The position numbers and the translations under genes are program-made. A stretch of DNA of 64,000 nucleotides. Source: Anaerolineales bacterium (GTDB taxonomy: Bacteria > Chloroflexota > Anaerolineae > Anaerolineales > Villigracilaceae). Position 1 is the first letter of the stretch; each line of letters begins with the position of its first letter. The stretch is taken from contig JACMLM010000069.1 of the NCBI GenBank assembly GCA_014379595.1, forward strand, positions 1 through 64,000, given 5' to 3'. Below are positions 20,676 to 21,360 of the stretch, in pieces. The notes under the pieces were generated by a model. That model did not search any database. It was not told where the DNA came from and saw only the letters and a program-made list of their open reading frames with translations.

Positions 20676-21341
20676 TTACGCAGCTTTCCAAAATTCGGAA
20701 GTTAATCCAAGCTCTTCAAATATCTCCTGTATGTGTTCCGTTGTGCGGCCATGATAATCAAGTGACATGCGGTTGTGATACCAACGCTGAGAGAGTTCCC
20801 ATACTTGATCAATGGATAAAACCGCACCGCGCTTAACCTTTTTTGATTCAAGCCATTGAATCAGATCTTCTTCCGACCGGAAGAAAAGCATATTCGCTCA
20901 GGTGTATACGAGGTCGTTATACCAGTCCTGAAATGGAACAAGAAAATGTACTAATGCATCAGAGGATGATATCTTTCCATCTTTAATATTTAACTGAATC
21001 GATGCTCCGCTTTGGGAGCATATTGCTTTGATCTCTGCATCGGCGTGTAACGCGGCGGGAATACCTAACGAGTCCCATGCACAATTGGCAGAATAAGTTT
21101 TTCCACTCGCGTGTACTTTAAACGGCGTCTCAACACCTGAAAATGGATTCGCCATGAGGATGTTATGCGTGCCGGGGTTGAGAAAAAAAGCGTGGCGCTG
21201 ATTAAGTTCCTCGTAGACCAAAGCAGCTTCATCGGTAGTCAAGTTGAAGCGTGCTGCAGTGTCCTCCACTGATGGAGGCTGAGTCGTCTCTTTAAAATAG
21301 TCATAAACAAAAGCACGAATTTCGCAAAGTTTATTGGTCAT
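20676..21341 (-). CDS. MerB-like (alkylmercury lyase family) selenoprotein, UGA = Sec at codon 148
   Basis: An apparent 147-residue protein stops at TGA (20898-20900), but the same frame continues ANMLFFRSEEDLIQWLESKK to a stop at 20676. Reading UGA as selenocysteine gives 221 residues, the usual MerB length (about 212). The N-terminal half is a winged-helix-like domain. NCAWDSLGIPAAL carries Cys and Asp spaced as Cys96 and Asp99 in MerB. VYTU-ANMLFF aligns with SFCCHVHFF of MerB, placing Sec at catalytic Cys159. A stem-loop follows the UGA. MerB breaks carbon-mercury bonds; homologues like this may have another substrate. ATG 21341 has GGAG upstream; a TTG at 21359 is less likely. An inactivating stop is the alternative. 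Confidence 0.82.
20866..20887 (-). promoter_or_regulatory. Bacterial SECIS-like stem-loop in the MerB-like gene
   Basis: On the mRNA, nine pairs (UUUUCUUCC with GGAAGAAGA, one G-U) close a four-base loop GGUC at 20875-20878. The loop begins 20 nt after the UGA, inside the 16-37 nt range expected for SelB-binding elements. It has G at the first two loop positions followed by U. GGUC is also the apical loop of the E. coli fdhF element (established knowledge). Confidence 0.78.
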
Positions 21342-21360
21342 GAATGCTCCAGATAGCAAA

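Follow-up and report, generated by a model that had tools for sequence, protein, structure and literature searches.

The window, a stretch of 64,000 nucleotides from an Anaerolineales genome, carries on its minus strand a MerB-like gene of 221 codons, counting an in-frame UGA, that begins with ATG at 21341–21339 and ends with TAA (Table 1). Codon 148 is the sole in-frame UGA of the gene, and a reading with translation table 11 divides it into two ORFs. The initial annotation had joined these two small ORFs into a single gene, leaving the strand unstated, and both the translation and the Pfam MerB domain bear it out. The MerB homology spans the UGA, with a PF03243 match over residues 67–188 of the read-through protein (E = 6.1e-29; score 101 bits, cut-off 27). 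In alignments U148, which is preceded by Thr147, falls on Cys159 of E. coli MerB and on the corresponding cysteine of MerB2 (5c17), while Cys87 and Asp90 of the NCAWD motif fall on Cys96 and Asp99 of E. coli MerB, the site to which the motif had been assigned; MerB2 has Ser at position 99.

Table 1. Coordinates of the MerB-like gene and its features in the window, and of the double-UGA relatives of type 2.
Feature	Coordinates	Strand	Evidence
Read-through gene, MerB-family protein of 221 aa, Sec at residue 148, TAA at 20678–20676	20676–21341	−	translation, Pfam MerB across the UGA, AlphaFold2 model
In-frame UGA, codon 148 (20900–20898), read as Sec; equivalent to catalytic Cys159 of E. coli MerB	20898–20900	−	MerB/MerB2 alignment, column in the family
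Predicted SECIS hairpin, bacterial type, 9-bp stem, apical loop GGUC at 20875–20878	20866–20887	−	fold, bSECIS model, conservation with compensatory changes, codon constraint
Cys87 codon (NCAWD), equivalent of catalytic Cys96	21081–21083	−	alignment
Asp90 codon, equivalent of Asp99	21072–21074	−	alignment
N-terminal winged-helix-like part, residues 1–66, as in other MerB	21144–21341	−	structural alignment rows to LexA/MntR, about residues 1–64
Shine-Dalgarno-like GGAG, 5 nt 5' of the ATG	21347–21350	−	read from the sequence
Double-UGA loci of type 2	L196:4208-4903, L197:4450-5103, L242:4423-5112		search reading UGA through

An AlphaFold2 model of the protein was built from 18 aligned relatives (18 of the 36 extracted sequences of at least 190 aa, four shorter ones being skipped) and has a mean pLDDT of 95.6. 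Its closest structural neighbour is MerB2 5c17, with Z = 19.7 over 188 aligned residues and an rmsd of 3.1, and comparisons with MerB structures give Z of about 15. The modelled protein has the MerB fold, with the equivalents of Cys96 and Asp99 kept. A promoter scan returned one minus-strand site, located inside the gene, against 1.5 expected.

Homologues of the gene were found in 40 of 151 related genomes. Among the 40 extracted sequences, from which matches in G035 and G137 were left out, 30 are full length and contain one UGA, in all cases at the same aligned place (the sequence from the window included). The rest comprise two fragments with UGA, two sequences with two UGAs, and six without UGA at the site, namely three full-length close Cys forms (G041, G125 and G100), the more distant G113 and two fragments. 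Decaying copies also occur among the relatives, one being split (G001) and two reduced to fragments (G058 and G052). A scan of GTDB with the single protein returned eight stretches, none of which was confirmed as a relative; the scan of GTDB contigs with the alignment gave 384 confirmed relatives, and the UGA is at the same place in 80 of 80 loci examined (the best 80 of the 384). Judging by record titles, in which the labels of metagenome-assembled genomes may err, the GTDB relatives come from at least five phyla, mainly Chloroflexota (with Thermomicrobiales, which are separate at NCBI), the other phyla being Gemmatimonadota, Acidobacteria/Thermoanaerobaculia, Actinomycetota and Calditrichota.

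The distribution of the codon was followed further in a set of 155 distinct MerB-family proteins, collected by a search that read UGA through anywhere. The residues at the Cys96 and Cys159 columns are Cys/Sec in 100 proteins, Cys/Cys in 45 and Sec/Sec in 9, and one fragment lacks the second site; the 45 proteins with Cys at both columns supply the cysteine homologues that the initial annotation had suggested looking for at codon 148. Within residues 1–190, 9 UGAs lie at the Cys96 column, 109 at the Cys159 column and 1 elsewhere, which places 118 of 119 on catalytic columns, and UGAs at residue 193 or later look like true stops or tails beyond the domain. Cys and Asp are kept at the other two catalytic positions in 99 of the 100 single-Sec proteins, the remaining one having Glu. 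By these alignments the UGA is a conserved codon across phyla and not a product of chance.

The UGA is followed by a hairpin, for which suitable spacing and a GGUC loop had been noted beforehand. Both stand: the stem has 9 bp, the distance from the UGA to the loop is 19 nt, and the folding energy is −13.1 kcal/mol (z = −2.43), with 6 of 200 shuffled sequences giving a hairpin as good. The bSECIS model, as set out in the consulted portion of PMC13188914, comprises a loop of 3–9 nt, an upper stem of 4–16 bp, a G in the first two loop positions, a spacing of 16–37 nt and a minimum free energy of −7.5 or lower, and the window hairpin agrees with every one of these conditions as given there. Among 104 distinct rows of the family, 98 have standard pairing throughout the five-pair core (the exceptions being L134, L135, L143, L145, L160 and L241), and the bSECIS geometry is present on the minimum-energy fold in 99, or 96 when the energy limit is also applied. 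Changes from C-G to U-A on both sides are seen at three of the five core pairs in these rows. The number of cells changed on both sides, 14, exceeds that in all 500 shuffles, as counted in 97 rows from which L134, L135, L143, L196, L197, L241 and L242 were left out because their hairpins differ. The RNAalifold covariation term is only −0.24, and the measure of further pair types was matched by 66 of 500 shuffles; pairwise covariation support for the hairpin is modest.

Codon constraint provides stronger evidence for the hairpin than covariation. In 111 coding sequences the serine of the motif is encoded by TCG in 101 of 105 cases, compared with 23% of 1192 other Ser codons, and its arginine by CGG in 78 of 84 cases, compared with 20% of 1697 other Arg codons, although the p-values for this constraint treat related sequences as independent. 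The SECIS motif is not kept in the seven Cys forms that were compared.

The host genome (4.47 Mb in 72 contigs, 95% complete) contains all four genes whose presence the initial annotation had proposed to check. The scores of selA (551 bits), selB (342 bits) and selD (345 bits) are all above the curated cut-offs, and a tRNA-Sec gene (selC) scores 64.6 bits against a gathering threshold of 47, with ARAGORN in agreement (tRNA-SeC, anticodon tca). The selD gene of the host (L080, G000:C15:121516-122448) itself carries one in-frame TGA in the context STCAGUASK, so a second host gene apparently uses Sec, and the host SelD is probably also a selenoprotein.

The presence of selA was compared between genomes with the UGA form and genomes with a close Cys form. 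In the phylum sample selA was found in 21 of 21 UGA-form genomes (the G052 fragment counted) and in none of the four close-Cys-form genomes (G225, G169, G187 and G492). Since the base rate of selA is 331 of 400 phylum-sample genomes, the 21 of 21 are by themselves little above chance, and the contrast rests on the close Cys forms. The difference is significant with p = 8e-5 by Fisher's exact test, a value that overstates the association because three of the four Cys-form genomes belong to one family. In the sample of relatives, selA exceeds the cut-off in 30 of 33 UGA-form genomes; G034 and G050 have none and G092 has a fragment at a contig edge, and all three are fragmented drafts. The Cys forms of this sample include two genomes without selA, G125 and G100 (in the latter a match of 43 bits falls short of the cut-off), and one with it, G041. 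Taken over both samples, seven genomes carry a close Cys form, and six of them lack selA.

Median pN/pS ratios in 228 pairs of sequences are 0.226 before the UGA and 0.219 after it, and the corresponding values for the window sequence and its nearest relative are 0.24 and 0.29. Purifying selection is equal on both sides of the UGA.

These data bear on two readings in which codon 148 would not encode Sec. The broken copies among the relatives could be taken to suggest that the UGA is a nonsense mutation or a sequencing error in a MerB pseudogene, but the same UGA is found in 109 of 155 proteins from several phyla, purifying selection is equal on its two sides and the SECIS is conserved. We therefore reject the pseudogene, which is scarcely credible. 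The DNA alone would also be compatible with read-through as Cys or Trp, by a near-cognate tRNA, a change of the genetic code or insertion of Cys. Several genes of the same family end in TGA (for instance those of G085, G028 and G063), so UGA also serves as a stop in these genomes; together with the SECIS and the link to selA this leads us to reject a code change, and we regard any decoding other than Sec as extremely improbable. The UGA at codon 148 most likely represents selenocysteine at the second catalytic Cys site, where the initial annotation had placed it, and the Cys/Sec pairs, the sel genes, the SECIS, the selection pattern and the taxonomic spread all agree with this assignment.

Two sugar-type ABC permease genes of the window converge on the gene, and DUF4440, TfoX_N and PhzF genes lie beyond its 5' side. 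No mer or Sao family is among the matches listed for the ten neighbouring ORFs (for one of them, an aldolase/dehydrogenase, the best 25 of 212 matches). Neighbourhoods were also compared in 89 family loci, in which at least one genome is represented twice (L123 and L248), by scanning one representative of each neighbour family. Within 6 kb of the gene, 26 of the 89 loci encode an HMG-CoA reductase-like protein, in every copy but one upstream and in the same orientation, and downstream there is a condensing-enzyme (HMG-CoA-synthase-like) gene in 18 loci and a thiolase gene in 15. The setting with HMG-CoA reductase, synthase-like and thiolase genes is that of the L083–L131 clade, where it is seen in many Anaerolineales. 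In many loci of the L132–L160 clade the gene is located between ribosomal S2 and EF-Ts genes and a pyrH-like gene (18, 12 and 12 loci), with a median gap of 47 nt in the 12 loci of the pyrH-like setting. The amino-acid-kinase-family neighbour looks like pyrH, and the condensing enzyme looks like HMG-CoA synthase. Each setting is confined to its clade, and neither occurs at the window copy.

The host genome has no MerA above the curated cut-off (best score 356 bits versus 454). In a test of 80 chosen genomes, with groups assigned by the analyst, MerA exceeds the cut-off in 10 of 50 Sec-form genomes, 1 of 7 close-Cys genomes, 5 of 15 genomes with canonical MerB and none of 8 genomes without MerB; the difference between Sec and canonical forms is not significant (p = 0.31 by Fisher's exact test). 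In G486 the MerA gene adjoins a Cys/Cys MerB. With no mer gene among the neighbouring ORFs examined and MerA mostly absent, the Sec MerB gene appears to be a stable part of the chromosome, lying outside mer operons.

Substitution of Sec for Cys159 is expected to make attack easier and mercury binding tighter, and to leave the site deprotonated at neutral pH. The initial annotation had offered two functions, a selenium-based lyase and a mercury/selenium sensor. The fold and the catalytic residues speak for the lyase, whereas no mer gene was found among the neighbouring ORFs examined and no MerA over the cut-off in the genome, and nothing points specifically to a sensor. We consider it reasonably probable that the window gene encodes a MerB-family selenoprotein that acts as a stand-alone, chromosomally encoded enzyme cleaving C–metal bonds in organometals, the lyase function being the best reading of the predicted MerB fold. 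SelB and tRNA-Sec would insert Sec at codon 148, and Cys87 and the Sec148 selenolate would jointly coordinate the metal atom of the substrate, an organomercurial or other organometal. Asp90 would shuttle a proton, freeing the carbon group, and the metal would then pass to cellular thiols or selenols. Compared with a thiol, the selenolate of Sec148 is expected to attack the metal more easily and to hold it more firmly, so that release would need protonation or exchange. The Sec MerB would act alone on the chromosome, outside a mer operon. The model chemistry of MerB, as described in the section of PMC4525700 consulted, has two cysteines holding Hg, Asp99 relaying protons and thiols taking Hg off.

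The same protein could instead be a selenoprotein of general metabolism that handles another substrate, such as a metalloid-alkyl compound, an electrophile or a non-mercury metal, and is not an organomercurial lyase. Such a role would fit the lack of a visible mer context, the usual absence of MerA, and the HMG-CoA-pathway-like or S2/EF-Ts/pyrH-like neighbours in other loci. On the other hand, the Cys and Asp retained in 99 of 100 single-Sec proteins fit a site for C–metal protonolysis, and the neighbourhoods are clade-specific, with the window copy in neither; we regard the other substrate as unlikely, while giving it more weight than any other alternative. A sensor or scavenger, in which Cys87 and Sec148 would bind mercury without turnover, appears very improbable. 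A selenolate binds mercury very strongly, which would suit such a role, as would the winged-helix-like N-terminus, but the latter is no special feature because the alignment with solved MerB structures extends over this part, and the equivalent of Asp99, which is needed for turnover, is kept.

A MerB-like selenoprotein as such is already in print. According to a table in PMC13188914, SaoL is a MerB-like selenoprotein with the motif CU and one Sec; its NCBIfam model is NF040728, for a MerB-like organometallic lyase, and its reference is Haft and Gwadz 2023. SaoL and the window protein are alike in being MerB-related predicted selenoproteins, but by the curated model the window protein is not SaoL, as it scores 56.4 bits against the NF040728 cut-off of 140. 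This cut-off was reached in none of the 400 phylum genomes (best score 84.7) and was missed by all ten further proteins compared (nine UGA forms and one Cys form). The two also differ in that SaoL has the motif CU whereas the window protein has Thr before Sec, and in the lack of a Sao model among the matches listed for the ten ORFs next to the window gene. The 159-position SaoL profile ends approximately at the Cys159 equivalent (positions 158–165, extrapolated from eight matches), so the Sec of SaoL may sit at the Cys159 site, the same as that of Sec148. A weak match to the SaoL profile (24.5 bits) with one in-frame TGA was seen at G216:C110:12875-13072, possibly a further Sec MerB.

With MerB (PF03243; 3f0o/3f2f, and MerB2 5c17) the window protein shares the fold, Cys96, Asp99 and a cysteine, Cys108, at the Cys117 position; it differs in the Sec that replaces the second catalytic Cys (Cys159) and in the absence of a mer gene among the neighbouring ORFs examined. 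Its scores remain below the cut-offs of the NCBIfam MerB equivalogs (49 of 193 bits for PRK13239 and 46 of 200 bits for NF033555). Other bacterial selenoproteins with Cys/Sec pairs resemble it in having a UGA at a Cys site, a hairpin within 16–37 nt and sel genes, but their Sec lies at a redox site and that of the window protein at a metal-lyase site, and some relatives of the window protein have UGA at both catalytic positions.

A large survey of mer genes screened MerB for Cys159 (PMC8261052, in the part consulted), and the term "seleno" is absent from that portion of its text. As gene callers also stop at UGA, the Sec MerB branch risks being missed or logged as truncated under screening of the kind described there. 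MerB is absent from the consulted portion of PMC2398784, mercury and lyase from that of PMC12013277, and the searched terms from PMC5029168. Among the matches listed in the literature searches there was no publication on a Sec MerB family or a double-Sec MerB, a result that holds for the accessible main texts, the reviews PMC13188914 and PMC9312934 among them.

The most surprising part of the Sec MerB family is its double-Sec forms: UGA occupies both catalytic columns in nine proteins, which belong to two separate clades. Type 1 (n = 6; L059, L053 and L192–L195) has the motif QUGFES and a second UGA shortly 5' of LFRSEE, and is found in G040, G054, G486 and, with three proteins, G276. Its Asp99 column contains Glu in five of six proteins and Asp in L194. 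The Cys/Sec relative L198 (G238) clusters with type 1, and in L053 (G054) the double-Sec protein carries a fused AAA ATPase domain. Type 2 (n = 3; G160, G518 and G468) has the pattern AAUAID ... FURxSxFFWSEE; one of its genes, L196, lies immediately 3' of ABC-transporter-like genes, as identified by ORF reading. The hairpin after the first UGA has bSECIS geometry in eight of the nine proteins (with loops such as CGUGC and GGUCU), L193 failing on the minimum-energy fold, and after the second UGA it is L197 that fails on the minimum-energy fold.

A tree was computed for 87 of the 155 proteins (62% identity filter, rows below 150 aa dropped), including seven of the nine double-Sec proteins. Type 1 joins the single-Sec clade (branch 91) and type 2 stands apart from it, while the Sec protein L241 (G210) falls inside a canonical MerB group (starred, 96). 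The starred branches alone require at least three changes of the Cys/Sec label, in which gain of Sec is indistinguishable from loss because the tree is unrooted and its support is SH-aLRT only.

These results lead us to speculate, with somewhat more doubt than belief, that MerB-type enzymes adopted selenium on several occasions, and in certain lineages at both of the metal-attacking positions. The outcome would be a widespread chromosomal, selenium-dependent C–metal cleavage, independent of mer and Sao clusters, in which two selenolates together bind mercury or another soft metal and turn it over. If the enzymes are active, selenium supply would play a part in how methylmercury is broken down in habitats that, by record titles, include sludge, groundwater and soil, and active double-Sec forms would belong to the few enzymes that place two selenolates at a single metal site. 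Comparison of the C/C, C/U and U/U variants of the fold permits a direct test of what Sec contributes to metal chemistry.

Several family members deviate in individual ways. L144 has the lone UGA off the catalytic columns, at column 164, where many relatives have Cys after Trp; this extra UGA may reflect a sequencing error, decay or a further Sec. Cys replaces Asp99 in five Cys-form relatives (L048–L050, L206 and L207, with the motifs NCAWC, PCMWC and PCLWC). On a Rubrobacter radiotolerans plasmid (L209:1956-2422) the annotated merB is truncated and the homology extends beyond it, first through a UGA at the Sec site and then after a change of frame, so that this copy looks broken. At L241:4967-5575 the UGA at the Cys159 site is followed by Cys (LUCKIYYF), and the gene has its own hairpin 24 nt downstream.
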